A program made the position numbers and the translations under genes. A stretch of DNA of 39,537 bases from a virus. A model generated the notes under the pieces. That model saw nothing but the letters and a program-made list of their open reading frames with translations. It ran no database searches and had not been told where the DNA came from. The DNA is taken from positions 1-39,537 of the IMG/VR virus record IMGVR_UViG_3300008113_000530; one strand, written 5' to 3'. This document shows positions 3,925-36,639 of the stretch, in pieces (positions within the stretch are counted from its first letter, which is position 1; every line of letters begins with the position of its first letter).

Positions 3925-3929
3925 AAAGC

Positions 3930-3937
3930 TATTTATA
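3930..3937 (-). promoter_or_regulatory. Late promoter box of the HNH gene
   Basis: A perfect TATAAATA on the minus strand ends 5 nt before the ATG at 3924. T4 late transcripts start about 6 nt after this box, so the mRNA would begin at the start codon. No Shine-Dalgarno sequence is possible in the gap. Confidence 0.75.
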
Positions 3938-3995
3938 ACTGCCCTTTTTGATCCCTTTTTGGTCTGTTATTACTAGGTATTTTTTGATACTTTCC

Positions 3996-4003
3996 AATAA
4001 ATA
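3996..4003 (+). promoter_or_regulatory. Late promoter box of the tail sheath gene
   Basis: AATAAATA, one base off the T4 late consensus, 32 nt before the gp18 ATG. It is followed by a normal ribosome site TAGGAG (4022-4027). This is a leadered late promoter, in contrast to the leaderless ones nearby. Confidence 0.65.
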
Positions 4004-4035
4004 CTAGTAGAACAAAAACCTTAGGAGATTCCAAG

Positions 4036-7000
4036 ATGGCATTAAGTTCACCAGGCGTAGAAGTCAAAGTAATTGACGAATCGTTTTATACACCAGCAGC
4101 TCCTGGCACAGTACCACTAGTAATTGTTGCCTCTGCTGAAAACAAAGCAAACAGCGGAGGTACCGGAACCGCCCCGGGCACACTTAAAGCCAACGCTGGA
4201 GAAGTTTATCTTCTAACAAGTCAGCGTGATTTAGGTGATGTATTCGGAGATCCAGTCTTTAAGACAGATTCAAATAACAATCCTATCCATGCTGGAGAGC
4301 AAAACGAATACGGTTTACAAGCCGCATATAGTTTATTAGGTGTTAGCAATCGTGCATTTGTTGTACGTGCTGATTTAGATCTAAATCAACTAGATGCTCG
4401 TGCTACAGAACCAGATTCAAATCCGGCCAATGGAACACACTGGCTAGATACAAGTACTACATCATTTGGTATCTTTGAATGGAACGGTGCACCTGTAACA
4501 ACACGTGGCGGCCAAAAGTTTACTAACAAAGTTCCTCGTGTAATTACTGATCCTACACAAGTAGATTCTGCTACTGGCGGACCTAAAGGATCAATAGGAG
4601 CAATAGGAGATTATGCTGTAGTTATGACGGAAGATGAGCTTGCAGACAATCCTCAACTTACAACTCTGCATCCAGGTAAACTATGGTACAGAAATAGATC
4701 CGGGGACTGGGTAGCAGTAGGTACAGCAGATTGGTTTAATAGTTGGCCAGCAGTTACAGGTTCTGCTATTAACCCTACTCTTGTATCAGGTAACACATTT
4801 ACTATAAATGGTGTAACAATAATGTCAGGAACAACTGTTGCATCTGTAGTTGCTGATATTAATACAAAAATGGCTGCTCAAGGTATTAGTGCAGCAGCGC
4901 CAAACGGAAAATTAGAAATTTATAGTGACGGTACTCAAGGCAATAACCCCGAAGATAGCACAAGCTCTAATAGTGTTGTAATTGCTAACGGAACAGGTTC
5001 ACTAGTTGGCACAGATGGTGGCGCACTAGGTATTAAAACAGGCACAATTTACTTTGCTCCTAGATTGCAAATTAGCAAACATACTCAAGTTCCACAGTGG
5101 AAACTAACAGGATCTGAAAGAAGACCTACAGGTTCTGTATGGATTAAAACAACTGAACCAAATTTAGGTTCTCGCTGGAGAGTTAAGCGTTGGAGCGATT
5201 CAACCTCTGCCTGGGAAAGAGTTGATTCTCCATTATATGCTAATGGACAATCGGCAATAAACGCACTTGACCCAGCAGGAGGCGGTGTGAATTTACCAGT
5301 TGGCACATTATATGTTCAAACAAATTATACTGAAGATAATGGTACTGACAATAGTCCAAGATTAGCTTCGTGGAAAATTTGGAGGAAAGGCGGCAACGAA
5401 ACCGCTACTGTTATTAAAACAGCTAAAATTGAAAACGGAACAGTAACAGCTCAAGCTAAATCGTTTATACTAGCCGAAAGCTTACAGGGATCAGATGCAC
5501 TTGCTGATTATTTTGATAACGGTTCTTATCTTCCAAAAACAGTTTCTTGGACCGCAGGCGGCACAATTGCTGATTCGACATTAATGGCTAACGCTATTAA
5601 TTCTGCAGGATTTACTAACATCGAAGCCGAAGTTGATTCACAAAATCGTGTTTTAATTAAGCACAGATTAGGCGGCGATTTTAGAATGACAGAAGGTGCA
5701 GGCGCCCCATTAGCTGACTATGGATTAGCAACCTGGAATTATGAACCAGGAGCAACAAATACAGGAAAAACACAATTCTTGTTTGCAGCACCGAACGGAG
5801 ATGTATTACATGATTACATTGCTAGTTCATGGGAACCTCTAGTATATGCAGCTAATGCAGATGCTCCTACACGTATTCCAGTAGACGGACGCCTATGGTA
5901 CAGTTCTGTAATTGACGAAGTTGATATTATGATCCACGACGGTGACAAATGGGTTGGATATCAAAACTATGCTGAATACGGAAATACTGATGCTGACGGA
6001 CCTATTGTAAGTGCAACAGCACCAGAGCTTCAAAGTGATGGTAATCCGTTAGTAACTGGTGATTTGTGGGTAAGCACAGCAGACATGGAAAATTTCCCTC
6101 AAATTTACAGATTTAATTTTGATCTAGCTAATTTACCAATTTCAAAACGTTGGGTATTACTAGATAAAACAGATCAAAGCACAGAAGACGGTGTATTATT
6201 TGCAGATGCTCGTTATAATACAAGCGGAACTAATAGTTACGAACAAGGCACTATTGCAAGTCTGTTATCTAGCAATTACGTTGACCCTGATTGTCCAGAT
6301 CCAGCACTATATCCAAAAGGTATGTTGCTATGGAACTTACGTAGAAGCGGTTATAACGTAAAAGAATTCAAACGTGATTATATTAATACTGCTGATGATA
6401 ACATTCGTTTCAACGGCGAAGCAATGGAACTATACTATCCACATCGTTGGACAACTGTAAGCGGAAACCAAGATGACGGTTCTGGAAGTTTTGGACGTAA
6501 AGCACAACGTAAAGTTGTTGTACAAGCCTTACAAGCTACAGTTAATAGTAATCAACAGATCCGTGACGAAGACGGACGTATCTTTAACTTAATTGCTTGC
6601 CCAGGTTATCCTGAGCTAATCGGCGAAATGGTTAACTTAAACTACGATCGCGGTCTAACAGCATTTGTTGTTGGTGATACTCCTGCTCGTTTAACACCTG
6701 ATGCAACCAGCTTGCTACGTTGGGGTAATAATGAGCTAATTGCTGTAGAAGATAACGATATCGGAGCAGCTAGCTTTGACGAGTACATGGCTATGTTCTA
6801 TCCATGGGGCTTCACAAGCGACAACTTTGGTAACAATGTTGTTATTCCTCCAAGCCATATGATGTTAAGAGTTATTGCTCTAAACGATCAAGTAGCTTAT
6901 CCATGGTTTGCACCAGCCGGTGTACGTCGTGGTGGCATCACTAACGCAACCGCAGTTGGCTATGTTAACAGCGAAGGCGAATTTAGAAGTGTAGCACTAA

Positions 7001-7434
7001 ACACAGGACAACGTGATACGCTATACGAAACAAAGGTTAATCCTATTACATTCTTTACAGGTACAGGATTAGTTAACTATGGTCAAAAGACACGTGCTCG
7101 CGCAGCCAGTGCTTTAGATCGTATTAACGTAGCTCGACTAATTGTTTACTTACGTAGACAACTAGCTGTTTTAGCTAAACCATATATCTTTGAACCAAAC
7201 GATAAGATTACTAGAGATGAAATTAAAGCAGCGGTTGAAGCTTTACTATTAGAACTAGTAGGACAACGTGCTCTATACGATTACCTAGTTGTATGTGACG
7301 AAAGTAACAATACACCTAACAGAATTGATCGTAATGAGTTATGGATTGACATCGCAATTGAACCAGTTAAAGCAGTTGAATTTATTTACATTCCACTACG
7401 CTTGAAGAATACTGGCGAAATTGCTGGCCTATAA
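4036..7434 (+). CDS. gp18: Tail sheath protein gp18, with a large inserted middle region
   Basis: 1132 residues. The N-terminus MALSSPGVEVKVIDESFYTP, then QRDLGDVFG, NEYGLQAAYSLLGVSNRAFV and VVRADLDL, is the conserved start of T4-like sheath proteins, which form the contractile outer tail. The conserved C-terminal part runs from about residue 735 (ARYNTSGTNSYEQGTIAS) to the end (EFIYIPLRLKNTGEI). T4 gp18 is about 659 residues, so roughly 450 are extra. The extra lies between about 130 and 715 and contains recurring short units of the form G-x-LW-(Y/V/I)-x(8-25)-W near residues 134, 214, 366, 422, 618 and 675. I infer surface-exposed decorations on the sheath. Confidence 0.93.
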   Translation: MALSSPGVEVKVIDESFYTPAAPGTVPLVIVASAENKANSGGTGTAPGTLKANAGEVYLLTSQRDLGDVFGDPVFKTDSNNNPIHAGEQNEYGLQAAYSLLGVSNRAFVVRADLDLNQLDARATEPDSNPANGTHWLDTSTTSFGIFEWNGAPVTTRGGQKFTNKVPRVITDPTQVDSATGGPKGSIGAIGDYAVVMTEDELADNPQLTTLHPGKLWYRNRSGDWVAVGTADWFNSWPAVTGSAINPTLVSGNTFTINGVTIMSGTTVASVVADINTKMAAQGISAAAPNGKLEIYSDGTQGNNPEDSTSSNSVVIANGTGSLVGTDGGALGIKTGTIYFAPRLQISKHTQVPQWKLTGSERRPTGSVWIKTTEPNLGSRWRVKRWSDSTSAWERVDSPLYANGQSAINALDPAGGGVNLPVGTLYVQTNYTEDNGTDNSPRLASWKIWRKGGNETATVIKTAKIENGTVTAQAKSFILAESLQGSDALADYFDNGSYLPKTVSWTAGGTIADSTLMANAINSAGFTNIEAEVDSQNRVLIKHRLGGDFRMTEGAGAPLADYGLATWNYEPGATNTGKTQFLFAAPNGDVLHDYIASSWEPLVYAANADAPTRIPVDGRLWYSSVIDEVDIMIHDGDKWVGYQNYAEYGNTDADGPIVSATAPELQSDGNPLVTGDLWVSTADMENFPQIYRFNFDLANLPISKRWVLLDKTDQSTEDGVLFADARYNTSGTNSYEQGTIASLLSSNYVDPDCPDPALYPKGMLLWNLRRSGYNVKEFKRDYINTADDNIRFNGEAMELYYPHRWTTVSGNQDDGSGSFGRKAQRKVVVQALQATVNSNQQIRDEDGRIFNLIACPGYPELIGEMVNLNYDRGLTAFVVGDTPARLTPDATSLLRWGNNELIAVEDNDIGAASFDEYMAMFYPWGFTSDNFGNNVVIPPSHMMLRVIALNDQVAYPWFAPAGVRRGGITNATAVGYVNSEGEFRSVALNTGQRDTLYETKVNPITFFTGTGLVNYGQKTRARAASALDRINVARLIVYLRRQLAVLAKPYIFEPNDKITRDEIKAAVEALLLELVGQRALYDYLVVCDESNNTPNRIDRNELWIDIAIEPVKAVEFIYIPLRLKNTGEIAGL

Positions 7435-8117: not shown

Positions 8118-8150
8118 GTGATCCATTTTTATCTACGTAGATAATGGTAG

Positions 8151-8157
8151 ATAAATA
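8151..8157 (+). promoter_or_regulatory. Late promoter box before the tube-like gene
   Basis: GATAAATA, with core ATAAATA at 8151-8157, ends 5 nt before the ATG at 8163. There is no room for a Shine-Dalgarno sequence, so a leaderless late mRNA is expected. Confidence 0.65.
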
Positions 8158-8162: not shown

Positions 8163-9191
8163 ATGTCAAGCTATTCTAATCGTCAATTTAATAGTGGTTC
8201 CGGTGGGTCACCTGTACTACGTGATTTCCAACATGCTGCTCGTTCTTTTGTCGACGGCGACTTTGCACTAGCTCCAAGGCTTAAATTTCAACATCATGTT
8301 GTTATAAGCACCTTAGGAGGCTCAAGCTCTCAACTTAGTGCTGTTATTAAAAGCATGGAAACTCCTAAAATTTCTGTCAATACAGAAGTAGCAAATCAAT
8401 ATAACAGACGTAATGTTATAATGTTAAATTTAAATTATCAGCAGGTAACATTAAAATTTTATGATGATAATTCTGGAGTAGCTAGAAAAGTTTTTGAAAG
8501 TTGGTACAGTTATACATTTGGCGACCATGGTGCAGCACAAGCTGGTCTATATGGTAAAAGTTTTGGTCCTCCATTGACTTCATATGGTTTAGAAAACGAA
8601 CCTGTAGTTCCTTTTGTAAATTATGTAAAAATTCATACATTTGCTAAACGCAAATGGCAAGGGTTTACATTAGTACACCCTGTTATTGTATCATGGAGTC
8701 ACGATACGTTTAACTGGACTGACACAAGTCCTGCAGAACACACTATGGTAGTAGCGTATGATGCTGTAACATATGATAGCGGTGGTGCAGGCCCTGGAAG
8801 TCCGCCAAACTTTGCATCTGCAAATTATGATCAAACTCCAAGTCCGTTAAAGTCGGGCGGTGGTGGAAGAAGTCCGTCGCCGGGTGTACAAGGTGGAGTT
8901 CTAAACGGTAAAGAACAAGTATTTGGATCTGCTGAAAGAAAAGTAGATCCTACTAGTGCTTACAAAAGTCCATTAACGGCTCTTTCAGCTAATCCTAATT
9001 CTGCTAAACAGTATATCGAAACTAAACCATTAACTAATCAAGGTCTAGCAAATTCTACAAAAAATTCACCTATTAGAAATCCGCAAAGAAGTTCAAACTT
9101 AGGACGTATTGGATTAAACGACACAGCATTCCCTGTTTACGACAAAGATAATACTGTGCCTACAACACAAAGAAGAATAACTGGTTTATAA
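8163..9191 (+). CDS. Second tail-tube-fold virion protein (gp19/gp54-like)
   Basis: 342 residues. The first 210 have the tube-family look: LAPRLKFQHHVVIST, SMETPKISVNTEV with YNRRNVIMLNLNYQQVTLKF, and a closing PAEHTMVVAYDAVTYDSG strand pair. The last 130 residues are low-complexity Gly/Ser/Pro/Asn and probably disordered. Candidate roles are the tail tube initiator (gp54) or another baseplate tube-cap protein. Assignment to one T4 gene is not possible from sequence alone. It lies between gp19 and gp4 in the late block and ends one base before the next ATG. Confidence 0.6.
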   Translation: MSSYSNRQFNSGSGGSPVLRDFQHAARSFVDGDFALAPRLKFQHHVVISTLGGSSSQLSAVIKSMETPKISVNTEVANQYNRRNVIMLNLNYQQVTLKFYDDNSGVARKVFESWYSYTFGDHGAAQAGLYGKSFGPPLTSYGLENEPVVPFVNYVKIHTFAKRKWQGFTLVHPVIVSWSHDTFNWTDTSPAEHTMVVAYDAVTYDSGGAGPGSPPNFASANYDQTPSPLKSGGGGRSPSPGVQGGVLNGKEQVFGSAERKVDPTSAYKSPLTALSANPNSAKQYIETKPLTNQGLANSTKNSPIRNPQRSSNLGRIGLNDTAFPVYDKDNTVPTTQRRITGL

Positions 9192-11757: not shown

Positions 11758-11781
11758 AACGGGCCATAGGCCCGTTTTTTT
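11758..11781 (+). terminator. Rho-independent terminator before gp17
   Basis: AACGGGCC (11758-11765), loop ATA, GGCCCGTT (11769-11776) and a T-run to 11781. It separates gp16 and the internal-protein genes from the gp17 transcript. Confidence 0.9.
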
Positions 11782-11784
11782 ATT

Positions 11785-11791
11785 GTAAATA
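11785..11791 (+). promoter_or_regulatory. Late promoter box of gp17
   Basis: TGTAAATA, with core GTAAATA at 11785-11791, ends 4 nt before the ATG at 11796 and lies directly after the terminator T-run. The gap cannot hold a ribosome site. Confidence 0.55.
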
Positions 11792-11795: not shown

Positions 11796-13391
11796 ATGGC
11801 AACAAAAAGTTTAGACGGCGTTTTAACCAAAAAAGCCCATACTAAAGAAACATTTACAGAGCAACAGATTGCTGATTTGCTCAAGTGCAGTTCTGACGAC
11901 GGGTATCATCATTTCTGTAGTACCTTCTTTTATATACAGCACCCTGTTAAAGGTAAGATGCTGTTTGAACCATTTGAGTATCAAACACGGTTATTAGATG
12001 CTTACCACGGACATAGATTTAATATTAACATGTTACCTCGACAGATGGGTAAAACTACCTGTGCTGCTGGTTACTTGTTATGGTATGCCATGTTCCACCC
12101 GGATCAGACAATATTAATTAGTGCTCACAAATATACTGGTTCGCAAGAAATTATGCAGCGTATTAGATACGCTTATGAATTATGTCCTGACTACATTCGT
12201 AGTGGGGTAGTAAACTACAATAAAGGGAGTATAGAATTTGATAATGGATCACGTATTGTCTCTACAACTACTACTGGCAACACAGGTCGTGGTATGTCTA
12301 TTTCCCTACTATACTGTGACGAGTTTGCATTTGTTCCGCCTAATATTGCAGACGAATTCTGGACTTCAATTTCGCCAACACTAGCAACTGGTGGTAAAGC
12401 AATCATTACTTCAACACCGAACAGTGACGAAGATACATTTGCTACTATATGGAAAGAAGCTAATAAAAAATTTGACGAGTTTGGTAACGAGAAAGAAACG
12501 GGTGTGAACGGATTCTTTCCGTTCACATGCTCTTGGAGTGAACATCCAGATAGAGATGATGCATGGGCAACAACAGAAAGGGGTCGTATTGGTGAAGAAC
12601 GATTCCGTCGAGAATACAATTGTGAATTCTTAGTATTTGACGAAACACTAATTAACAGTATTCATCTTGCTGGCATGGAAGGGCGAAACCCTATAATGAA
12701 TTTGGGACAAGTCCGTTGGTATAAAGAAATTAAAAAAGACATGTTATATGCAGTAAGTTTAGATCCTAGTTTAGGCACCGGCGGAAATAGATCTGCTATT
12801 CAAGTTGTTGAATTGCCCTCATTTATACAGGTTGGCGAATGGCATCATAATCTTACACCTATACAAGGTCAAATAAGAATTCTTAAAGAGATACTACAGT
12901 ATATTCAAACTCAAATAGGTGACGAAAGTAGTAACAGCCTTTACTGGAGTATTGAAAATAATAACATTGGCGAAGCTGGTTTAATTTGTATTAAAGACAT
13001 AGGTGAAGATCAGTTTCCTGGGTTGTTTGTCAGTGAGCCTATACGAAAAGGGCATGTACGCAAATTCCGTAAAGGGTTTAATACTACACATAAAGCTAAA
13101 ATTAGTGCCTGTGCTAGATTGAAATACCTAATCGAATCAAACAAAATGACCATTAACAGTAAACCTTTAATTACTGAACTAAAATCTTTTATAGCACAGG
13201 GTGTAAGTTTTCAGGGTAAAATGGAAGAGCCTGACGATTTAGTTAGTGCTATGCTATTAATTATACGTATGACACAGGTATTAGCTGACTGGGATGCAAG
13301 GGTATTTGATAGCTTTAGTACTAATGACGGAATTAATGACGAAGATTACGAAATGCCTATGCCCATTTATGTTTCGTCAACCCTAGCATAA
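11796..13391 (+). CDS. gp17: Large terminase subunit gp17 (packaging ATPase and nuclease)
   Basis: 531 residues, shorter than T4 gp17 (610). The N-terminal ATPase has LPRQMGKTTCAAGYL (Walker A, about 79-93) and LLYCDEFAFVP (Walker B with catalytic Glu, about 171-181), followed by ITSTPNSDEDTF coupling motif. The C-terminal RNase-H-like nuclease has SLDPSLGTGGNRSAI (about 320), SIENNNIGEAG (about 384) and EEPDDLVSAMLL (about 478), which supply its acidic residues. gp17 cuts concatemers and drives DNA into the prohead. Confidence 0.95.
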   Translation: MATKSLDGVLTKKAHTKETFTEQQIADLLKCSSDDGYHHFCSTFFYIQHPVKGKMLFEPFEYQTRLLDAYHGHRFNINMLPRQMGKTTCAAGYLLWYAMFHPDQTILISAHKYTGSQEIMQRIRYAYELCPDYIRSGVVNYNKGSIEFDNGSRIVSTTTTGNTGRGMSISLLYCDEFAFVPPNIADEFWTSISPTLATGGKAIITSTPNSDEDTFATIWKEANKKFDEFGNEKETGVNGFFPFTCSWSEHPDRDDAWATTERGRIGEERFRREYNCEFLVFDETLINSIHLAGMEGRNPIMNLGQVRWYKEIKKDMLYAVSLDPSLGTGGNRSAIQVVELPSFIQVGEWHHNLTPIQGQIRILKEILQYIQTQIGDESSNSLYWSIENNNIGEAGLICIKDIGEDQFPGLFVSEPIRKGHVRKFRKGFNTTHKAKISACARLKYLIESNKMTINSKPLITELKSFIAQGVSFQGKMEEPDDLVSAMLLIIRMTQVLADWDARVFDSFSTNDGINDEDYEMPMPIYVSSTLA

Positions 13392-13394
13392 ATA
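13388..13394 (+). promoter_or_regulatory. Late promoter box of the 2OG oxygenase gene
   Basis: CATAAATA, core ATAAATA at 13388-13394, overlaps the gp17 stop and ends 5 nt before the ATG at 13400. A leaderless late mRNA is predicted. Confidence 0.65.
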
Positions 13395-13399: not shown

Positions 13400-13981
13400 A
13401 TGATGATATTTGAAGACCTAATAGACGAGCAAACTCAAGATTTAATCGAAGAAGATATTTTATCTCAAGATTTTCCTTGGTTTTTTTGCCCCTATACTAT
13501 TGACCTTACAAATGCTACTGACTTAGAAAAAACTTTTGTATACGAACAAGGATTAAATCCTAATCAATTTGTTCATCTTGTTATCAGCGAAAGTAAAGTA
13601 AACAGTCAAAAGATAGAGCTTATAAGACCAGTGCTACAAAATTTAGCAGAAAAAATGCAAAAAAACATTTACGTTGAAAAAGCCAAATTTAATTTTTTAC
13701 CACAAGCTATTTCAGATGATTATCATTATCCCCATGTTGATATTAAATCAGATAGCGACGATATGATGTCAATGATATACTATGTAAATAATTGCGACGG
13801 TGATACATACTTTTTTGATGATATAGGCCCTAAAACTAAAACCTATACAACTGTAGTTGATAAAGTAACTCCTAAAAAAGGTAAAGCCGTTATATTTGAA
13901 TCTAAACAATTCCATTCTGGATCTAGTCCTGTAGTCTCGGAAAAAAGAATTGTATTAAACGTAGTTTTTAAAACGATATAA
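13400..13981 (+). CDS. 2-oxoglutarate/Fe(II)-dependent oxygenase
   Basis: 193 residues. The double-stranded beta-helix iron site is visible as YHYPHVDIKSD (H-x-D, about residue 113), the distal histidine in FESKQFHSGSSP (about 175) and the 2-oxoglutarate-binding Arg in KRIVLNVVF near the C-terminus. This is the prolyl-4-hydroxylase-like type found widely in marine T4-like phages. Such enzymes hydroxylate proteins, nucleic-acid bases or small molecules, and the substrate cannot be told here. It starts with ATGATG (13400 or 13403), without a ribosome site, just after gp17. Confidence 0.8.
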   Translation: MMIFEDLIDEQTQDLIEEDILSQDFPWFFCPYTIDLTNATDLEKTFVYEQGLNPNQFVHLVISESKVNSQKIELIRPVLQNLAEKMQKNIYVEKAKFNFLPQAISDDYHYPHVDIKSDSDDMMSMIYYVNNCDGDTYFFDDIGPKTKTYTTVVDKVTPKKGKAVIFESKQFHSGSSPVVSEKRIVLNVVFKTI

Positions 13982-13983: not shown

Positions 13984-15882
13984 ATGGAACTAAATTTAGA
14001 AACAACTGCTGAAGAACTATTTGGGAAATTAAGAACACAATTTCCACAAATTAAACTAGGCGATGCTAACAATAATGTAACAGATACTCCTAAGGATGCT
14101 AGATTTTTTGAATTTGATTTTGTTAAAAAAGGACAAAACTTAGGAACTGTTACTGTAGATATTTCTGAGGATGACGGATTAGTTGTTATTTACAGCAACG
14201 ATATTGCTGATCAGGGATCTACCGGAATAACACAACAGTGGTATAATTTTTTAAAAGAGCTTAGAGAATTTGCCAAACAACACAGAATGAAATTTAGTGC
14301 TAGAGATACAACCAAATCAAATTTAGATAAAAGAGATTATAACTATCTAGCTAATAAGCACGGAGAAGCTGCAATGAGTGAAAGTAAATTATGGGGTACT
14401 TCCAAAACAAGTTTTCAAGACATGGGAGAAGCCAAACTTATCGTTAAACATACAAAGCCTGTTAACTACGATCTACCTGCTGGTAGAACTATGCACATTG
14501 ACAGCATCTATGTTGAAAATGCCGACGGAGAACGATTTAAGTATCCGTACAAGCATCTAAACGGAGCTAGAGCACTAGCACAACACGTTGCACACGGTGG
14601 TAACAGTTACGATTCTATTGGTCAACACATTATTGGTCTTTCAGAAGAATTAAACAAGTTACGCATGTTTAAAGGCTATGTTGATCGTAATGAAATGGTC
14701 AGCGAAGCTATGGGAGAAATCAATAGCAAAGTTTACGAACGTATTGATCAGGTTAAAAAAGAAATTCATAGTTTACAAAATGTAAATTATTACAAATCAT
14801 TTGCTGAGTCATGGACTGATCCAGAAGAAATTTTTATTCCAGAAGACGTAGTTAGTGACTGGGTAGATAGATTAACTATTCGCAGTTTTAATGAAGAATT
14901 AAAAAATGTGTTTCCATATATTTTTAAACTAGTTGGTGAAAATGTTGCCCCAGTAAAAGAAATTATGCCTAGTGATTTGTTTACAGATATTGAAGAAGAA
15001 TCTCAATACGATCCAGTAAAAGAAATTGACGAACTTGTTAACTATGAAACATACTTAAATCAAATTGTTGGAGAAAGCAATGATTTGTTTAGTAATAATC
15101 CAGAATCTCAAAGTGTAGCGTTGCAAAAATTAAATGCATTAATGAGTCAAGAATTACCAGGCGGCGCCGATGGTACTAATGTTATTCAAAGCCTAAAAGG
15201 TGTAATTGATGATCCAGAATTAACAAAAGCGTTAAAATTTGTTAGTGCATTAAATCCAGAAAGTGATGTTAGAGACATCATTGTACAATATTTAAAAGCT
15301 AAAGATGAAGAAACTGGTACTGATCTAAGTAGTCAAATTCAATTTGATAAAGGCGCAGCACCTGCACCAGCAGCGGCACCTACACCTGCACCAGCAGCGG
15401 CACCGGCAGCACCTACACCAGAACCGACTGAGCCTCAACCAGGTGTACCAGTAGCAGAAAGATTTATGCGAGCTATAGAAAAAGCTCGTCAAGCAGGTGC
15501 GACACAAGAAACTATTATTAGATTTAGTGGCAAAGATTTAACTATTAGAGAAGCAGCCAAACTTGCTAAAGTTGATGTTGGTACTATTTTTGCAGAAGAT
15601 TCGATGAGTAGTAAACAAGAAGAAGTAGTTGAGTTTATTAAATCTATGTACGACGAGCAAACTGGTTCTTTCCCCAAAGGTGAAACTGGTGTAATGATAG
15701 CAGTTGAAAAACAATTTGGCGAAGATGTTACTGAACTAGCATCAACGGTTATTAAAGAACTAAGCGCCATTTACGAATCAAAACGCCTTCGTCAATTGGC
15801 TGGTATTACTGAACACGGTCTTCAAAAACCACAAGCTAGTGTTGCCGAGATGTTTAAAGCTTTGAACGCAAGACTTCAATAA
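13984..15882 (+). CDS. Large probable virion protein with an Ala/Pro linker
   Basis: 632 residues. The N-terminal part (1-130) is a small alpha/beta region. ESKLWGTSKTSFQ, AKLIVKHTKPVNYDLPAGR and ERFKYPYKHLNGARAL (about 132-200) belong to a family I recognise from marine T4-like phages. A long helical section follows. Residues about 458-488 are almost only Ala and Pro, in three near-repeats, a flexible linker. The C-terminal domain has SFPKGETGVMIAVEKQFG and ESKRLRQLAGITEHG. The function is unknown; its position in the late block suggests a virion or ejected protein. It begins 2 nt after the oxygenase stop. Confidence 0.55.
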   Translation: MELNLETTAEELFGKLRTQFPQIKLGDANNNVTDTPKDARFFEFDFVKKGQNLGTVTVDISEDDGLVVIYSNDIADQGSTGITQQWYNFLKELREFAKQHRMKFSARDTTKSNLDKRDYNYLANKHGEAAMSESKLWGTSKTSFQDMGEAKLIVKHTKPVNYDLPAGRTMHIDSIYVENADGERFKYPYKHLNGARALAQHVAHGGNSYDSIGQHIIGLSEELNKLRMFKGYVDRNEMVSEAMGEINSKVYERIDQVKKEIHSLQNVNYYKSFAESWTDPEEIFIPEDVVSDWVDRLTIRSFNEELKNVFPYIFKLVGENVAPVKEIMPSDLFTDIEEESQYDPVKEIDELVNYETYLNQIVGESNDLFSNNPESQSVALQKLNALMSQELPGGADGTNVIQSLKGVIDDPELTKALKFVSALNPESDVRDIIVQYLKAKDEETGTDLSSQIQFDKGAAPAPAAAPTPAPAAAPAAPTPEPTEPQPGVPVAERFMRAIEKARQAGATQETIIRFSGKDLTIREAAKLAKVDVGTIFAEDSMSSKQEEVVEFIKSMYDEQTGSFPKGETGVMIAVEKQFGEDVTELASTVIKELSAIYESKRLRQLAGITEHGLQKPQASVAEMFKALNARLQ

Positions 15883-15906
15883 ACGGCTAAAATAAATCAT
15901 AATTAA

Positions 15907-15965
15907 GCAAGATTTCTCTTGCAAACATAAATAAAAACGCATACAATAACATGTATGCGTTTTTT
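15907..15965 (+). terminator. Terminator ending the structural block, before gp32
   Basis: A small hairpin GCAAGA-TTTC-TCTTGC (15907-15922) is followed by a strong one: AAAACGCATAC (15934-15944) pairs with GTATGCGTTTT (15953-15963) and runs into Ts to 15965. It separates the late virion transcript from gp32. Confidence 0.85.
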
Positions 15966-16032
15966 GTTTAGTAGGTTCTAAACAAATAAAGGCAAATACA
16001 ATAGGCTATTAAAATTTATTAGGAGGCTCATT

Positions 16033-17019
16033 ATGGCATCATTAGCTGAAATTCGCGCAAAATTAAAGGAACAAGAAACACGCTCAACAGGCGACGGTAA
16101 CAGAACAGGTGGAGATAATTCCATTTATCCGTTCTGGAACTTAAAGGAAGGTTCCGAATCAACAGTCCGTTTTCTTCCTGACGGAAATTCCGATAACACA
16201 TTTTTCTGGGTAGAACGTGCAATGATCAAATTGCCATTCCCTGGAGTTAAGAACTCGACTGATAGTAAACAAGTTACTGTCAACGTCCCTTGTATGGAAA
16301 TGTATGGCGAAAGCTGTCCTATCCTTAACGAAGTACGTGGTTGGTTCAAAGATCCTACTTTAGAAGATATGGGTCGTAAATACTGGAAGAAGCGTTCATA
16401 CATCTTCCAAGGATACGTTGTTGAAGACGGTTTGAAAGAACAAGAACGTCCAGAAAATCCTATCCGTAGATTTATTATTGGACCACAAATTTTTCAACTT
16501 ATCCGTGGCGCATTGCTAGATCCAGAAATGGATGACTTGCCAACTGACGCAGTTAACGGTGTTGACTTTAAATTGATCAAAACTTCAAAGGGTGGTTATG
16601 CTGACTATTCTACTAGCAAGTGGAGTCGCCGTACTCGTCCGCTCGACGATGCGGAAACTGCCGCTTTAGAACAACATGGTTTGTTTAGTCTTAAGGATTA
16701 CTTGCCTAAGAAGCCTTCAGACGTAGAAGTTAAAGTTATCAAAGAAATGTTCGAAGCTTCTGTTGCAGGCGAACCGTTTGATATGGACCGTTGGGGGCAA
16801 TACTTTAAGCCAGCAGGTATGAGTTCTGCTACTGGTGATCCTAATACTGTTAAGGCTGCTCCAAAGGCTGCTCCTGTTGTAGCCGATGAAGACGAAGCTC
16901 CATGGGAACAACCTGCCGCTAAGGCAGCACCTGCTCCTAAAGCAGAAGAATCAAAACCTGCCGCAGGCGGTAGCAAGGCAGAAGATATCCTTGCTATGAT
17001 TCGTAATCGAAACAAGTAA
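16033..17019 (+). CDS. gp32: Single-stranded DNA-binding protein gp32
   Basis: 328 residues. The N-terminal basic cooperativity segment (LAEIRAKLKEQE) is followed by the OB core: YPFWNLKEGSESTVRFLPDG, FFWVERAMIKLPFPGV and NVPCMEMYGESCPIL. Only two Cys (about 87 and 95) lie where T4 gp32 has a three-Cys/one-His zinc site, so the zinc site looks altered. The C-terminus is Ala/Pro/Glu-rich and acidic, ending EDILAMIRNRNK, for partner binding. A perfect AGGAGG at 16021-16026 precedes the ATG, fitting high expression. It coats ssDNA in replication and recombination. Confidence 0.95.
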   Translation: MASLAEIRAKLKEQETRSTGDGNRTGGDNSIYPFWNLKEGSESTVRFLPDGNSDNTFFWVERAMIKLPFPGVKNSTDSKQVTVNVPCMEMYGESCPILNEVRGWFKDPTLEDMGRKYWKKRSYIFQGYVVEDGLKEQERPENPIRRFIIGPQIFQLIRGALLDPEMDDLPTDAVNGVDFKLIKTSKGGYADYSTSKWSRRTRPLDDAETAALEQHGLFSLKDYLPKKPSDVEVKVIKEMFEASVAGEPFDMDRWGQYFKPAGMSSATGDPNTVKAAPKAAPVVADEDEAPWEQPAAKAAPAPKAEESKPAAGGSKAEDILAMIRNRNK

Positions 17020-18379: not shown

Positions 18380-18831
18380 ACTGGTATACTCAAATCTCTA
18401 AGGATATTAGTAATATCCCCGACGCTGTAGAATATTACGAAGCTGAATTACAGGCAGCAAAATATGAATGCCGTATAACGGGAAATATAGAAAAGGCCGC
18501 TGCCAATATGCCTGGTGTTGTAGAAGTGAGATTTGGGCAACTTCAAGAAATTGAAGCAATATTAGAGTACTTGAACATTGAATGTCGTAGACTTAAAAGT
18601 CAACACTTTAGAAAGTATCTTGAAAATTATCAACGAGCACTAAGTAGTCGAGACTGCGAACGTTATGTAGAAGGCGAATCCGATGTTGTAGATTTTGAAA
18701 AAATCATCAACGAGTTCGCCTTACTACGTAATAAATGGTTAGGTATTACTAAAGCCCTTGATCAAAAACAATGGCAATTAACTAACATTGTCAAACTTAG
18801 AGTGGCCGGGATGGAAGATGCGTCGATATAG
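18376..18831 (+). CDS. Possible UvsY-type recombination mediator
   Basis: 151 residues, all-helical by composition, close to T4 UvsY (137). MNWYTQISKDISNIPDAV, VRFGQLQEIEAILEYL, LRNKWLGITKALDQKQWQL and the ending VKLRVAGMEDASI show no catalytic motif. The coupled position two genes after uvsX and the size suggest the mediator that loads UvsX onto gp32-coated DNA. Sequence resemblance to T4 UvsY is too weak for certainty. The 3' end overlaps the convergent gene by 35 nt. Confidence 0.45.
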   Translation: MNWYTQISKDISNIPDAVEYYEAELQAAKYECRITGNIEKAAANMPGVVEVRFGQLQEIEAILEYLNIECRRLKSQHFRKYLENYQRALSSRDCERYVEGESDVVDFEKIINEFALLRNKWLGITKALDQKQWQLTNIVKLRVAGMEDASI

Positions 18832-19486
18832 TACGCATACGCTGTATTGGTGGTCTATCTGCTCGTAGGGTATTAACAAAAAATACCATTGTTAATCTAG
18901 CATTTTCTCTCTCAGCAGTAAATTCGTGCGGTGCATGATGCATATGGCCGTCATATGCAAGTAATCTGTTATACACGTTACTAACTCTTACTGTTTCTGT
19001 AAACTCTGTTGCTACTTTTTTCCTATAAGATTCTGCATCTTCTAAGGTTTTGTCGCCGCCCTTGTAAAAATCAATCTTAGTCATAATAGATTCCATTTTA
19101 TTCGGAGCAAAGATAGCCTCGTTCGTTCTAGCATAAATTGAAGTACCGCTATGACTATCCCCGTCTGGCGACAAGTAAACTAATCCGGCTAGCCTGCATA
19201 GCTCGTCTTGATGTATCCATCCTGTTCCGTATGTTTTATCAATTTGTTGAAAACATACATCCATAGACCATTGTACATTATCTTTTTCAAAATCAAAAAA
19301 TAAAGAAAAAAACTTGTTAGCAAAATAATCTACAAAATCTGGATTTATCTCGTGTAACGCTTTAGTTCTTGCTCCAGGCCATCGTCCGAGTTCGTCTGTG
19401 TAATAAGGTAAACTTAACGCCCATTTTCGTATACTGTCTGGGTTGTCAAAAAACTTATCAACTATAGTTAGAGGTATAATGTGCAT
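18797..19486 (-). CDS. DUF6445-like putative iron oxygenase
   Basis: 229 residues. GTGWIHQDELCRLAGLVYLS gives an H-x-D pair (about residue 92), a GTSIYARTNE segment follows, and NRLLAYDGHMHHAPHEF plus ARLTMVFFVN supply a distal His and the Arg. This is the jelly-roll 2OG-Fe(II) layout of the DUF6445 type seen in phages and marine bacteria. Substrate is unknown. It flanks the sugar-transferase island and is divergent from it, with a perfect TATAAATA box 4 nt from the ATG. Confidence 0.65.
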   Translation of the reverse strand: MHIIPLTIVDKFFDNPDSIRKWALSLPYYTDELGRWPGARTKALHEINPDFVDYFANKFFSLFFDFEKDNVQWSMDVCFQQIDKTYGTGWIHQDELCRLAGLVYLSPDGDSHSGTSIYARTNEAIFAPNKMESIMTKIDFYKGGDKTLEDAESYRKKVATEFTETVRVSNVYNRLLAYDGHMHHAPHEFTAERENARLTMVFFVNTLRADRPPIQRMRTISTHLPSRPL

Positions 19487-19490: not shown

Positions 19491-19498
19491 TATTTATA
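19491..19498 (-). promoter_or_regulatory. Late promoter box of the DUF6445-like gene
   Basis: Perfect TATAAATA on the minus strand, 4 nt before the ATG at 19486. Together with the box at 19517 it forms a divergent pair of perfect late promoters in 42 bp. Confidence 0.78.
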
Positions 19499-24341: not shown

Positions 24342-25199
24342 ATGAAATTTTCACTTTTCCCCAATCATGGCGCACTAAACAGCAAACCGGTATTTGAAGC
24401 GTTTGCACAAGGCGTTAAAAATTTAGGACACACTGTGGTCTTTCACGACCTAAATGCAGATTGTTATGTCATATGGTCAGTGTTATGGCAGGGACGTATG
24501 CGTGGTAACCAAGAAATTTGGAATTTTGCAAAAAAAACAAAAAAACCGGTAATAATTCTTGAAGTAGGTACACTGGTAAGAGGCACTACATGGAAATTAG
24601 GACTCAGCCATGTTAACGCTCTCGGATATAATTTTGAAAAATTTGATATTGATTACACTAGATCACAAAAATTAGGATTGTCCTTAAAACCATGGAAAAA
24701 ATCAGGTCAAAATATTGTAATTTTTGGTCAACACAGCCAAAGTGAACAATGGTCAACAAGGCCGCCTGTTGATGAATGGTTAAAAAATTTAGTTACAATC
24801 ATACGCCGTTACTCAGACAGACCTATAATTTATAGACCTCATCCTCGAGACAGATTTTTTCAAAAAATTGACGATTTTTCAACCTCTATACCTATAAAAA
24901 TTCCCGACAGTCACGATGTCTACGATCATGAGCGTGAACTGGAAACTACCTGGTGTGCTATCAACGCTTGCTCCGGTGTAGGTGTGCAAGCAGCAATTAA
25001 TGGTATACCAATTTTTTGTGAAAAAGATAGTTTAGCCTGGCCTGTTAGTATTGAAAATTTAGCAAATTTAGAAAATCCATTAACACCTGACAGAGCGGTA
25101 TGGTTTGAAAAAATTTGTAACACCGAATGGACTATCAACGAAATAGCATCAGGGCAACCTATCAAAAATTTGTTGAAAAACTTGACAATTTTTGACTAA
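24342..25199 (+). CDS. GT-B-like putative glycosyl- or glycerophosphotransferase (paralogue B)
   Basis: 285 residues. KPWKKSGQNIVIFGQHSQ, VTIIRRYSDRPIIYRPHPRD and INACSGVGVQAAINGIPIFC align block for block with paralogue A (302 residues), with identical spacing of the HP motif and the small-residue donor loop. It has no membrane segment. Duplication followed by divergence suggests two linkages or two donors. The -35 box of the next promoter lies inside its last codons. Confidence 0.6.
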   Translation: MKFSLFPNHGALNSKPVFEAFAQGVKNLGHTVVFHDLNADCYVIWSVLWQGRMRGNQEIWNFAKKTKKPVIILEVGTLVRGTTWKLGLSHVNALGYNFEKFDIDYTRSQKLGLSLKPWKKSGQNIVIFGQHSQSEQWSTRPPVDEWLKNLVTIIRRYSDRPIIYRPHPRDRFFQKIDDFSTSIPIKIPDSHDVYDHERELETTWCAINACSGVGVQAAINGIPIFCEKDSLAWPVSIENLANLENPLTPDRAVWFEKICNTEWTINEIASGQPIKNLLKNLTIFD

Positions 25200-25210
25200 G
25201 AGTGTAAAAT
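25182..25210 (+). promoter_or_regulatory. Sigma-70-type early promoter of the uvsW operon
   Basis: TTGACA (25182-25187), exactly 17 nt and TAAAAT (25205-25210). The -35 is inside the end of the preceding gene. The -10 ends 6 nt before the ATG at 25217, so transcription should start at the start codon. Confidence 0.78.
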
Positions 25211-25216: not shown

Positions 25217-26392
25217 ATGAATAGCACAGATAACATTCTCATTGATCTTTACTCTAGTTCACCTACAAGCGTCCAACAAACTGTTCCGGTTAGGGATAGA
25301 AAAATTCTAGTTAGTCTTTTTAGACAAATTAGTAGTGGGCATTTTTTGACCGAAAATCAGGGAAAATTACTGGTAAAAATTTTTAATGAAAACATTGATA
25401 ATTTAGAATTTAAAGATCCTGAAATTTTATCTTTAATTGAATCACCGATCTGGTCAAAGCCCTTCCGCCAGATTGAATACGTAAAAAAGATTTACCTTAG
25501 TGACAGTGAAGAAAAGCACATAATTATAGAATTTACCTTTAATAAACGTATTAGGGACCAGATTTCTAAAATATCTAAAGACCTCGACGGTGCTTTGATA
25601 TCTATCGGTAATAAGAAGCACACATTACCATTAACAGAAAAAAATATATTAACTCTTGTTAAGGGTTTAAAAAACTTTCGATTTGAAATTGATGAAAAAC
25701 TTCAGAATTTTTACCATGAAATTTTAGAAGTTTTATCAACTAAAGAAAATATTTTCGATCTAAAAAATATCGAAAGTAAAAAATTGTTAGACAGTTTGTA
25801 TGCAGATATCGGTGTAGAAAATAGTGAAAATCATCTATTATTAGCCGATAGAAAAATTCGGTATCAATACCAAATTTTTAGTGATTTTGCACCGGGTACA
25901 TTAACTGATAAAATTGCCTATCGAAGAACATCTAAATTATATCTTGATAAGAATCAAGTTAGTTTAACAGACATTATACATTCGCTGAACGAACTTAACC
26001 GATTACCTGTACTTTTTATTTTTTCAAGCCATGACATTAAAGATTCTATAACTGATCTCAAAAATATGGCAACTGCACTTGAATCAAATTCGATTGCCGA
26101 TGTAGGGATTTATTTTAGATTTGACAATACAACTGAGCAGAATAAAATTTTTAATGATTTGATTAACACCTTAAAATATAATTTGAAGTTAGATAAAAAT
26201 ACAAAAATTGTAGGATTAGCTAACAACAAACTACCAAAATTTCTTGTTAAAGATCAATGGAAGCCAAACAGTATTATATCGTTCACAAACAATTTTAAAA
26301 ATAACAAAACTAGTGTATACTGTGATGATGTAGATCTTATCATCTACTATCATGACAAAGCACCGTTAGGAGATATTGATGCCATCATGTAA
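25217..26392 (+). CDS. Unknown 391-residue protein coupled to UvsW
   Basis: No recognised domain. Lys/Ile/Asn-rich alpha/beta protein without signal peptide or membrane segment. SSGHFLTENQGKLLVKIFNE (about 39-58) resembles a short module seen at the start of some phage helicase-region proteins, a weak resemblance. RLPVLFIFSSHDIKDSI (about 262-278) looks like a Rossmann-type strand. It is the first gene of an early unit with its own promoter and overlaps the uvsW start by 14 nt, so it probably acts with UvsW in fork remodelling. That role is inference. Confidence 0.55.
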   Translation: MNSTDNILIDLYSSSPTSVQQTVPVRDRKILVSLFRQISSGHFLTENQGKLLVKIFNENIDNLEFKDPEILSLIESPIWSKPFRQIEYVKKIYLSDSEEKHIIIEFTFNKRIRDQISKISKDLDGALISIGNKKHTLPLTEKNILTLVKGLKNFRFEIDEKLQNFYHEILEVLSTKENIFDLKNIESKKLLDSLYADIGVENSENHLLLADRKIRYQYQIFSDFAPGTLTDKIAYRRTSKLYLDKNQVSLTDIIHSLNELNRLPVLFIFSSHDIKDSITDLKNMATALESNSIADVGIYFRFDNTTEQNKIFNDLINTLKYNLKLDKNTKIVGLANNKLPKFLVKDQWKPNSIISFTNNFKNNKTSVYCDDVDLIIYYHDKAPLGDIDAIM

Positions 26393-30844: not shown

Positions 30845-31218
30845 CGCTTAGTTGATCTAATTAACTGTACAGATTTACGTTTGACTCTTTTTAAGGTCAT
30901 GTTTAATAAATTTACAGTTGGTCCTAACACAATTCTAACATCTTTGCTGTTAAAGGTCTTAACAGCATATTTAAAAGGCTCAATTTCTTTACGACAAAAA
31001 ATACTAATGGGTATTTGACGATTTGATTCCCACCACCATATTTCGCCTATTTCTAAAAAGATGGTTTTTTCTTCTGGGGTTCGGATTAATTCAAGGTCGT
31101 AAAAACTAGTTACGTGCTGATCTTGATTAATGACTATTCCTACATATTCTTCTTCCCCGTAATGTAGTACAGTAATAAATGGTAGTTGTTCTTGTATGTT
31201 ATCTCTTAATTTAGCCAT
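30841..31218 (-). CDS. Conserved T4-like phage protein, opposite strand
   Basis: 125 residues from the ATG at 31218 (MAKLRDNIQEQLPFITVLHY). A longer frame to 31275 would enter the divergent gene. YVGIVINQDQHVTSFYDLEL, IGEIWWWESNRQIPISIF, SKDVRIVLGPTVNLL and RVKRKSVQLIR are conserved in marine T4-like phages. The WWWESNR signature is striking. Function unknown. Its stop overlaps the stop region of the DnaE-like gene by 4 nt, tail to tail. Confidence 0.68.
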   Translation of the reverse strand: MAKLRDNIQEQLPFITVLHYGEEEYVGIVINQDQHVTSFYDLELIRTPEEKTIFLEIGEIWWWESNRQIPISIFCRKEIEPFKYAVKTFNSKDVRIVLGPTVNLLNMTLKRVKRKSVQLIRSTKR

Positions 31219-31225
31219 ATAAATA
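31218..31225 (+). promoter_or_regulatory. Late promoter box of the structural gene at 31245
   Basis: Perfect TATAAATA whose first base is the last base of the start codon complement of the opposite gene. A GAGG ribosome site (31231-31234) follows before the ATG at 31245, so this late mRNA has a leader of about 14 nt. It puts a late gene inside an early block. Confidence 0.75.
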
Positions 31226-31244: not shown

Positions 31245-32051
31245 ATGCAAAAAATTTCAAGTTATTTATATTCAAATCGGATTCCGGTAAATTTAGATTT
31301 GACTACCTCACCTCTGGAGTGGAGAATCGTGTATCAAAGAACTGTTAAAATTTACAAGGGCTATGACAATGTCATAGAATTAGATATTAAAAATGCTGAA
31401 CAAAGACGATTTGATGTTAGCAGTCTTACTCTTAAATGCTTGATTATGGACGAATTAGGGCAGGAAATATACACTGCGCCTGTAGTACACACTGCCACTT
31501 TAGGTATTAGTAAATTTACTATTCCTAAAGTTGAACTTGATTATCTTGAGCCTCAATTTTTACGTTATGTAATCTATAAGCAAAACAACGACGGTACACG
31601 TAACGTTATCTACGGAGATACACAATTTGAAGCTGGTGGTCGTATGGATCTGTTAGGTTCAGCTCAAATTATAACACCTGCTCCAAAGATCATTGATACA
31701 TTTACCTATCTGCACAGTACAATAGACGATGCTACTAAGACATATTACAGTGAAGCAGTCGAAGTTAATCCGCCAAATGACATTGTTGAAGCTACTACAA
31801 TGAATTTGGAATTTTGGTGCGATAATGTAGAAGCCACAGTTAATGTTCAAATTACTACAGATCAAGTAGTGAGCACAGGCACTGACTGGGATACCCTGGA
31901 AACCTTTACTGTAGCATCAACTACCAATCGTGTATTCAAAACTTATAACAGCATAACTGATTTTAGCAACAACATAAGTTGGCTAAGAATTACCTACGAA
32001 TTACTAGGAAACAACACCGGAAAAATTGACAGAGTCATCGTTAGAGTATAA
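31245..32051 (+). CDS. Virion structural protein, late, inside the replication block
   Basis: 268 residues, beta-rich. MQKISSYLYSNRIPVNLDLT, VYQRTVKIYKGYDNVIELDI and KNAEQRRFDVSSLTLKCLIM are typical of a conserved structural protein of marine T4-like phages, with a baseplate-type immunoglobulin/BppU-like first half and a second sandwich domain (CDNVEATVNVQITTDQ onward). It is preceded by a perfect late box. It sits between the DnaE-like gene and gp61, out of place for a structural gene. Confidence 0.7.
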   Translation: MQKISSYLYSNRIPVNLDLTTSPLEWRIVYQRTVKIYKGYDNVIELDIKNAEQRRFDVSSLTLKCLIMDELGQEIYTAPVVHTATLGISKFTIPKVELDYLEPQFLRYVIYKQNNDGTRNVIYGDTQFEAGGRMDLLGSAQIITPAPKIIDTFTYLHSTIDDATKTYYSEAVEVNPPNDIVEATTMNLEFWCDNVEATVNVQITTDQVVSTGTDWDTLETFTVASTTNRVFKTYNSITDFSNNISWLRITYELLGNNTGKIDRVIVRV

Positions 32052-32054
32052 AAT
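32026..32054 (+). promoter_or_regulatory. Sigma-70-type early promoter of the gp61-gp41 operon
   Basis: TTGACA (32026-32031) lies within the last codons of the structural gene, then a 17-nt spacer and TAAAAT (32049-32054). The -10 ends 6 nt before the gp61 ATG at 32061, predicting a leaderless early mRNA. Confidence 0.78.
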
Positions 32055-32060: not shown

Positions 32061-33044
32061 ATGAATCTGATCATTGACACTGTCAATACCCACTTGCCAC
32101 CTAGACGCAAAACTACACCTAGTGGATGGGTAAGCTTTAATGCTGTCTGTTGCCACCATAATGGTGAAAAAGCAGATACACGTCAGCGTGGCGGTATCAT
32201 GCTCAATGAAGGTGTTAGTTATCATTGTTTCAACTGCGGCTTCAAAGCCAGTTGGCAACCTGGTAGAAAAATATCGGCTAAATTCAAACGACTGTTAAAA
32301 TGGATTAATGTATCCGACGAGCTCATTACCAAATGTAGCATAGAGGCCATGCGTATAGAAGAAGTCGAAGGTTATACCAGCGAACGACTAGATCAGATCA
32401 CGTTTATTGATAAGGCACTACCACGCGGTAGTGAACCAATAACGTCATACTTAGATAATGTACCCGATGAACTAGTACCAGTGTTAGCATACTTACAAAG
32501 TCGTAATTTATATTTAGAAGACTATGATTTCCACTGGACTGATGAAGAAGGATTTACCAATAGACTGATTATACCATTTCGCTATCAAGGGCGCATTGTA
32601 GGTTATACAGCTAGAAAAATCACAGAAGGCAAACCAAAGTATATCAGTGAACAACAACCAGGATATGTGTTTAATCTAGACAGACAGCTGGTAGATCGCA
32701 AATATGTGTTTGTAGTTGAAGGTCCTATTGATGCTATATCTATTGACGGAGTAGCACTGACTAGTGCAGAAATTAATCAAACACAACGCAAATTGATCGA
32801 GCAACTGGGCAAACAGATAGTGGTAGTTCCTGACCGAGATCAACCAGGATATAGACTAGTCGAGCAAGCACTGGAATTTGGTTGGGGCCTAAGTTTTCCT
32901 GAATGGCCCGAAGGCGTCAAAGACATCAATGAAGCACAACAACAATTAGGCCGACTGGCCGCACTATACTTGATTGTACAGGGTATAGAAACTAATCAAT
33001 TAAAACAACAACTACGAGCTCGAGCGTGGTTTAAAGGACAATAA
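32061..33044 (+). CDS. gp61: DNA primase gp61
   Basis: 327 residues (T4 gp61 342). The N-terminal zinc ribbon is formed by C30/C31-H32/H33 and C56-x2-C59 (SYHCFNCGF). The TOPRIM domain has FVVEGPIDAISIDG (about 217-230) with the catalytic Glu, and VVVPDRDQPGYRLV (about 255) with the D-x-D pair. NRLIIPFRYQGRIVGYTARK is the RNA-polymerase strand region. It makes primers on the lagging strand together with helicase gp41, two genes downstream. The start is leaderless by promoter placement. Confidence 0.92.
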   Translation: MNLIIDTVNTHLPPRRKTTPSGWVSFNAVCCHHNGEKADTRQRGGIMLNEGVSYHCFNCGFKASWQPGRKISAKFKRLLKWINVSDELITKCSIEAMRIEEVEGYTSERLDQITFIDKALPRGSEPITSYLDNVPDELVPVLAYLQSRNLYLEDYDFHWTDEEGFTNRLIIPFRYQGRIVGYTARKITEGKPKYISEQQPGYVFNLDRQLVDRKYVFVVEGPIDAISIDGVALTSAEINQTQRKLIEQLGKQIVVVPDRDQPGYRLVEQALEFGWGLSFPEWPEGVKDINEAQQQLGRLAALYLIVQGIETNQLKQQLRARAWFKGQ

Positions 33045-35710: not shown

Positions 35711-35712
35711 CA

Positions 35713-35802: not shown

Positions 35803-35831
35803 AATAAATAATCATACTAGGAGAGTATGAT
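35803..35831 (+). promoter_or_regulatory. Late-like box plus hairpin with the ribosome site in its loop
   Basis: AATAAATA (35803-35810) is followed by ATCATACT (35811-35818), loop AGGAG (35819-35823) and AGTATGAT (35824-35831), an 8-bp stem. The loop is the Shine-Dalgarno sequence, and the ATG at 35832 follows the stem directly. It mirrors the arrangement at 3031-3053. Confidence 0.6.
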
Positions 35832-36254
35832 ATGGAATTAATGGTTCGCGAATTCACACGTATACTCACAGACACTAATGAACTAATGGGCTGGGCAATA
35901 CCTGAATATGTTATAGCATACGAAAGCCGCATATTTGCCAGCAAAGTAGAACAGCCTAACTGGCAACCTGAACCTAGCTATGCAGAACGCTATCTAAGCA
36001 TACGCACCAGTGAGCAAGCACTGAATTTGGCCAATACCTGTTGGTTTACACGATCAATATTTCCTGAACTGGGCTCAAGAAAAGGCATTAACGAAAGCTA
36101 CTATGTACAACTGGGTCAAAGCTGTTATGATCGTGCGCTACGTGATCAAGAATCACCAACTGTGGAAATCATGCGTGATCACTTTGAATTTCTAGCTGAA
36201 ACTGCATATACTGCCATACGCCACTATGGCAAGTTTAGATCAATGTGGGAATAA
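35832..36254 (+). CDS. Unknown 140-residue protein
   Basis: MELMVREFTRILTDTNELMG starts a mixed helical protein. YLSIRTSEQALNLANTCWFT, GINESYYVQLGQSCYDRALR and FEFLAETAYTAIRHYGKF show long amphipathic helices. Two Trp and many aromatic residues suggest a compact fold. I recognise no family. It has a loop-presented ribosome site, an unusual control arrangement. The end overlaps the next small gene by 10 nt. Confidence 0.6.
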   Translation: MELMVREFTRILTDTNELMGWAIPEYVIAYESRIFASKVEQPNWQPEPSYAERYLSIRTSEQALNLANTCWFTRSIFPELGSRKGINESYYVQLGQSCYDRALRDQESPTVEIMRDHFEFLAETAYTAIRHYGKFRSMWE

Positions 36255-36460
36255 GACTAAAAACACTGACACAAACAGCCACAGGATATACATGTGAGCT
36301 TGAAGGTGCTATGGGCTGTATACTGGTACAAGATTTGGTTTGGATGGAAGATCGTGAAGATCTAAAGGATATACTGTACAGTCAAGCGTGGGCAGTGTTA
36401 CAGGGCAGTTTTCACTGCTGTCTTAGCCTTCCGGGCAAGGTACAACTGTTGACCCAGTAA
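36245..36460 (+). CDS. Possible small protein with a GTG start
   Basis: 71 residues from the GTG at 36245 (VGIRLKTLTQTATGYTCELE). It overlaps the previous gene and shows mixed composition with three Cys. A clear ribosome site is missing. The final 63 nt are antisense to the membrane protein at 36398-36628. Coding status is uncertain; if real it would be translated by coupling. Confidence 0.35.
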   Translation: MGIRLKTLTQTATGYTCELEGAMGCILVQDLVWMEDREDLKDILYSQAWAVLQGSFHCCLSLPGKVQLLTQ

Positions 36461-36628
36461 CAACCATGGTGACAAGTGTGCTAGACTCATTAGAATCCAC
36501 ATTATGAGCATGGTATCTATATGAGCTGTGCTAGTGCATACAGAATGTGTCTCATGATATTGATAAACAGCCATTATGGCAAATATAGGTGTGGGGAATA
36601 GATTAAAAAACTGATAAATTCTGTACAT
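36398..36628 (-). CDS. Small membrane protein
   Basis: 76 residues. Two hydrophobic segments are evident: IYQFFNLFPTPIFAIMAVY (about 4-22) and MLIMWILMSLAHLSPWLLLG (about 40-59), followed by a positively charged tail (LARKAKTAVKTAL), an inside C-terminus by the positive-inside rule. The PTP turn and SLAHLSPW look like a specific family rather than chance. A TTAAATA box lies 4 nt upstream of the ATG. Function unknown: holin-like or membrane-modifying are possible but not shown. It overlaps the uncertain gene at 36245. Confidence 0.55.
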   Translation of the reverse strand: MYRIYQFFNLFPTPIFAIMAVYQYHETHSVCTSTAHIDTMLIMWILMSLAHLSPWLLLGQQLYLARKAKTAVKTAL

Positions 36629-36632
36629 GCTG

Positions 36633-36639
36633 TATTTAA
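36633..36639 (-). promoter_or_regulatory. Late-like box of the small membrane protein gene
   Basis: TTAAATA on the minus strand ends 4 nt before the ATG at 36628. It has the same spacing as the leaderless late promoters elsewhere in the window but one more mismatch. Confidence 0.45.

Follow-up and report, generated by a model that had tools for sequence, protein, structure and literature searches.

The viral DNA analysed here, an entire contig of 39,537 bp from IMG/VR (hereafter the window), raises the question of whether a single T4-like phage makes two kinds of mRNA, leaderless and leadered, according to how far each promoter lies from the start codon. The window is a fragment of such a phage and holds genes for sheath, tube, terminase, a gp32-like and a uvsX-like protein, helicase and a gp61-like primase. 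Among named phages, the Pseudomonas phage PA5oct is nearest to its gp17 (55.7% identity), and a megablast of the whole window against phages gave no DNA-level match to any named phage. A first-pass annotation had placed seven late-type boxes 4–5 nt, and the −10 elements of two σ70 promoters exactly 6 nt, from an ATG, had found the Shine-Dalgarno (SD) sequence missing at all nine genes, and had set these against SD-led genes in the same DNA. All of these features are read directly in the sequence, and we consider it very likely that they reflect a conserved leaderless programme running on gp55-type late and host σ70 promoters alongside SD-led genes.

From promoter geometry, the mRNAs of all the close-promoter genes are predicted to be leaderless (‘late’ and ‘early’ being assigned here by promoter type, not by expression). 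On the minus strand, late box TATAAATA (3930–3937) lies 5 nt before the ATG of an HNH endonuclease gene (3583–3924; PHROG HNH, E 3e-4), and the box is close in 10/10 of this family. Relatives (e.g., L046, L058, L083) conserve AAAAGG-type repeats upstream of the HNH late box, on the HNH strand; these lie in the divergent region that also contains the gp18 leader (3925–4035 in the window). Box GATAAATA (8150–8157, plus strand), found also in relatives L164–L172, lies 5 nt before the ATG of a second tail-tube-like gene (8163–9191, plus strand; PHROG tail tube, E 1.7e-9); this diverged gene follows gp19, with a palindrome-like stretch between terminator and late box. An intrinsic terminator of the operon upstream (hairpin and T-run; 11759–11781, plus strand) ends 14 nt before the ATG of gp17, the terminase large subunit gene (11796–13391, plus strand; PHROG, E 2.4e-123), and is followed by box TGTAAATA (11784–11791, plus strand), 4 nt from that ATG; nearly every relative with this box has the terminator too. 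The end of gp17 is overlapped by box CATAAATA (13387–13394, plus strand), which lies 5 nt before the ATG of a 2OG-Fe(II) oxygenase gene (13400–13981, plus strand; Pfam PF13640). The genes for DUF6445 (18797–19486, minus strand; Pfam PF20043) and glycosyltransferase family 8 (GT8; 19529–20209, plus strand; Pfam PF01501) are divergent, with starts 42 nt apart, and each has its own late box 4 nt before its ATG (TATAAATA in both cases; 19491–19498, minus strand, and 19517–19524, plus strand). In L121, two divergent predicted leaderless starts (15280–15495, minus strand; 15507–16163, plus strand) are 11 nt apart, and each box lies inside the opposite ORF. Box CTTAAATA (36633–36640, minus strand), which has no confirming relative, lies 4 nt before the ATG of a putative membrane protein of 76 residues, called from its ORF alone (36398–36628, minus strand) and matching no family in Pfam or PHROG.

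Both σ70 promoters read TTGACA, 17 nt, TAAAAT, 6 nt, ATG. The first (25182–25210, plus strand; −35 at 25182–25187, −10 at 25205–25210) precedes the ATG at 25217 of a predicted leaderless early gene, an ORF (25217–26392, plus strand) for a 391-residue protein with no match in Pfam or PHROG. The second (32026–32054, plus strand; 32026–32031 and 32049–32054) precedes the ATG at 32061 of the gp61-like DNA primase gene (32061–33044, plus strand; PHROG primase, E 1.3e-37), and its −10 overlaps the stop of the preceding gene.

Most of the close-promoter genes leave little doubt about their start codon: a second Met is lacking in the HNH ORF and comes only at codon 284 in the 391-residue protein, 65 in the tube-like protein, 55 in gp17 and 47 in gp61. 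The absence of SD sequences is partly forced, because the box fills the SD position. SD-like sequences are present at gp18, gp19, gp32 and four leftward genes at 37–39 kb, as had been claimed, and late boxes also occur in leadered settings: AATAAATA (3996–4003, plus strand) lies 32 nt before the ATG of gp18 (4036–7434), with the SD AGGAG in between, and a further TATAAATA (31218–31225, plus strand) lies 19 nt before the ATG at 31245 of a gene for a 268-residue protein.

For comparison, 80 terminase loci, 80 primase loci and 9 further tube-gene loci were taken from IMG/VR, together with an additional relative of 364 kb (G001); the pooled set comprises about 190 related DNA pieces with 2,506 non-redundant genes in 798 families. 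ORFs were picked by a simple selection of our own. Single-linkage blastp defined the families, which makes the counts approximate, and family counts are reported because many contigs are akin to one another. A search for the host by way of relatives in genome_contigs found none; going by metagenome collections, our impression is that the group with close promoters is freshwater. Wrong starts arising from stop-codon recoding were considered and dropped, since reading through TAG leaves the coding coverage of the window unchanged (0.82 and 0.82). In G001, TAG readthrough adds open coverage chiefly in the two final pieces (L238, 0.25 to 0.39; L239, 0.13 to 0.44); this relative carries 24 clustered tRNA genes (L233, 4208–11964) and, apart from these, a tRNA whose anticodon is CUA (L238, 10196–10271), a possible amber suppressor.

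Where, then, would the RNA begin? The −10 element of a σ70 promoter covers positions −12 to −7, and with this geometry the modal 6-nt spacer sets +1 at the A of the ATG. The T4 late box covers −13 to −6 (PMC2988020), so that here it is the modal 5-nt spacer which sets +1 at that A. This geometry supports the proposal that RNA starts at or next to the ATG. For the 4-nt spacer strict T4 geometry yields the U of the AUG, and the start would have to move some 1 nt, to the purine. It is possible, if rather unlikely, that the promoters are real and RNA starts 2–5 nt before the AUG, yielding very short leaders and leaderless-like translation, a reading that would be more a variant of the best explanation than an alternative to it. 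Spacers do range from 4 to 7 nt, and the environmental relatives on the PA5oct side exhibit a second peak at 7 nt; however, the modal spacers of 5 nt (late) and 6 nt (σ70) differ by 1 nt, as expected from the two geometries if +1 is the A. In those relatives (L265–L344), the late-box peak at 5 nt holds 75 and that at 7 nt holds 37 of 1,003 genes, and the 7-nt peak perhaps represents a different start-site habit.

The arrangement of transcription units bears on whether the close promoters matter for translation. Some leaderless genes located behind other genes may also be read from longer transcripts, and gp61, the oxygenase gene and the 391-residue gene indeed sit 8–17 nt after another gene. 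Yet it is improbable that translation proceeds mainly from longer operon transcripts, with the close promoter as a minor supplement: terminators are located just upstream of gp17 and of the tube-like gene, and 20 of the 47 close late families start divergently from the neighbouring gene. The gp17 layout, that is, a hairpin and T-run terminator, NNTAAATA, 4–5 nt and the ATG, recurs in 67 of 76 listed relatives, a count made by eye that includes some near-duplicate contigs. The other nine have gp17 directly behind another gene, with neither terminator nor box; AAAGGAAG, which is SD-like, is present in seven of them and AAGG in L078, with nothing clear in L041.

Close and leadered late boxes share the same logo and flanks around TAAATA, the core being itself fixed by selection, and thus look like one promoter type; the 12 nt that the logo covers before TAAATA show no conservation. 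Eight of nine relatives have a gp55-like sigma (phrog_234), with strong matches in seven (E about 1e-24); none was seen in the window, which is a fragment. The gp55-like ORFs of G001–G006 and G008 have 277–285 residues, compared with 185 for T4 gp55. The gp33 profile PF16805 matched T4 and Syn9 and none of the relatives; the gp45 profile PF02916 matched T4 alone, missing Syn9 and the relatives, and is hence uninformative. RegB, the T4 RNase that cuts SD sequences, was rejected as the cause of leaderlessness: it is detected in T4 and absent in the nine relatives.

A/U-rich sequence around start codons generally helps initiation, and one might take TAAATA near the ATG for an element of this kind, not a promoter, with RNA starting further upstream. 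Consistently, genes of the close class are A-rich after the ATG, the only feature of base composition after the start to stand out. This reading is nevertheless very improbable, because a box with the same logo is found 16–32 nt upstream, before the SD, in leadered genes, where it could have no role in initiation, because the gp17 box directly follows a terminator, and because the early class exhibits complete −35/−10 promoters at matching spacing.

The statistical case for leaderless promoters is one of position. Within the window the late octamer per se shows no enrichment (5 exact copies versus 5.6 expected; 93 versus 107 with at most one mismatch), so that the count of boxes is unremarkable and position alone carries the significance. 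The claim that the distances cluster had been offered for refutation by shuffled upstream regions, and it withstood that comparison: the window has 7 TAAATA at 4–5 nt from a start, versus a mean of 0.22 and a maximum of 2 starts in 300 dinucleotide-preserving shuffles. G001 likewise has 15 versus 1.7 in shuffles, and among the 2,506 genes TAAATA lies at 4–5 nt in 203 genes from 47 families, versus 10.3 genes and 9.2 families; 65 genes are left in the peak when the seven largest leaderless families are dropped. By family, the distance of the late box is bimodal, with 26 families at 4 nt and 30 at 5 nt, a valley at 8–14 nt and a second mode at 16–25 nt. When only the −10 is counted in the window, the two σ70 cases are not significant (2 versus 0.53); they become so because the relatives provide 95 genes from 13 families with complete σ70 promoters whose −10 lies at 5–7 nt, versus 0.77 genes in shuffles. 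TATAAT alone at 5–7 nt is not significant by family (15 versus 10.3 families). Offsets of the complete promoters are again bimodal (5, 10 and 5 families at 5, 6 and 7 nt; second mode at 29–33 nt). Both promoter classes thus have a close mode without SD, SD-like sequences being seen at 9% (late) and 3% (σ70) of close-promoter genes, and a leadered mode in which most genes have an SD. A test free of gene calling gave the same picture: 260 of 287 ATGs located 4–5 nt after TAAATA open at least 70 codons, compared with about 13% at 0–3 nt, and GTG and TTG, unlike ATG, show no peak at 4–5 nt.

The split had been called systematic, and this is borne out across families, in which promoter class is kept by ortholog. 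A close late box precedes 48 of 56 non-redundant gp17 orthologs and 41 of 45 members of the tube-like family; the gene after gp17 is close in 39/47 cases in relatives, though not in the window, where the oxygenase gene intervenes. Close σ70 promoters are found by a strict rule at 41 of 64 gp61 orthologs, and at 27 of 44 orthologs of the 391-residue gene, which were found by blastp among the fetched loci; a peptide-pattern search for relatives of this protein confirmed none. Conversely, the sheath gene gp18 is leadered with SD in 25/27 orthologs and the 268-residue gene in 44/63. G001 repeats this division: promoters are close at gp17, the gene that follows it, the tube-like gene, gp61 and the 391-residue gene, and an SD is present at gp18, gp19, gp32, uvsX and a gp23-like capsid gene. 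For gp61, a −10-like hexamer lies 5–9 nt from the ATG in 46 of 47 listed relatives (52–71% protein identity; the exception is L155), most of those keeping it with a TTGAC-type −35. Coding constraint of the overlapped gene could explain part of this conservation, yet in L115, L124, L127, L128, L134 and L144 the promoter is retained although it apparently lies behind the upstream stop codon. Although the octamer as such is not enriched, shuffles, family counts, the caller-free test and conservation refute the idea that the pattern arose by chance or from the way start codons were chosen in an AT-rich genome, and leave that idea with a negligible probability.

According to the leaderless programme that we favour, this group of phages would make two kinds of mRNA. 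At leaderless genes the promoter, either a T4-type late box served by a gp55-like sigma or a host σ70 promoter, would stand directly at the start codon, RNA polymerase would initiate on the A of the AUG or a few nucleotides from it, and ribosomes, probably 70S with fMet-tRNA, would begin at the 5′-terminal AUG without SD pairing. In E. coli it is accepted that 70S ribosomes bind a 5′-terminal AUG directly (PMC9031893); for the genes considered here we infer both this route and the exact RNA start. Leadered genes (sheath, tube, gp32, uvsX, capsid) would be SD-led, with a late box about 16–32 nt upstream or a place within an operon. Structural genes with high expression retain SD sequences, and among the leaderless genes are enzymes, small genes and a tail protein; it is tempting to speculate that the split tunes protein dosage. 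It is likely that we are dealing with a dual programme in which the distance between promoter and AUG assigns genes, stably in evolution, and for which a T4-type late sigma was adapted on a genome scale.

The close late box characterizes a broad uncultured set, not T4-like phages in general. No gene belongs to the close late mode in T4, Syn9, KVP40 (140 kb), CBB (200 kb) or Atu_ph07 (200 kb), and PA5oct has one gene with a close late box, i.e., no mode beyond chance; scanning it with an exact pattern gave three σ70-like matches whose −10 is near an ATG. The mode is present in the environmental relatives on the PA5oct side, whose gp17 is 53–59% identical to that of PA5oct. In T4, whose late transcription is standard textbook matter, the late transcripts bear leaders with SD. 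The late promoters described here resemble those of T4 (gp55/gp33/gp45; PMC2988020, PMC7892883) in that a TATAAATA-like octamer drives structural genes, in that no conserved sequence is seen in the 12 nt before TAAATA, and in the gp55-like sigma of the relatives; they differ in having a close mode, which T4 lacks, and in that gp33 was not detected in the relatives. In Deinococcus-Thermus, −10 elements likewise lie a few base pairs from the start codon at constrained spacing, and adjoining the ORFs in this way they yield leaderless mRNA (PMC12340547); that system is cellular and uses a host sigma, whereas here a phage would use two promoter types, one with a phage-encoded late sigma. The cI mRNA of phage lambda also begins at the AUG and is translated without SD (PMC9031893), as is predicted here, but it is an isolated regulatory case, in contrast to the dozens of families, including terminase, primase and structural genes, encountered in the present group.

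Our searches of the open-access literature brought up no account of leaderless late mRNAs in T4-like phages. A T4-type promoter is here conserved, across dozens of gene families, at a distance predicted to remove the leader. Such phages offer natural, matched sets of leaderless and leadered genes within each genome, with which the purpose of leaderless initiation, be it dosage, timing or escape from changes in the translation machinery, may be tested. Finally, the spacing offers a practical guide by which promoters, start codons and temporal class may be called in an abundant, uncultured and apparently freshwater group of phages.
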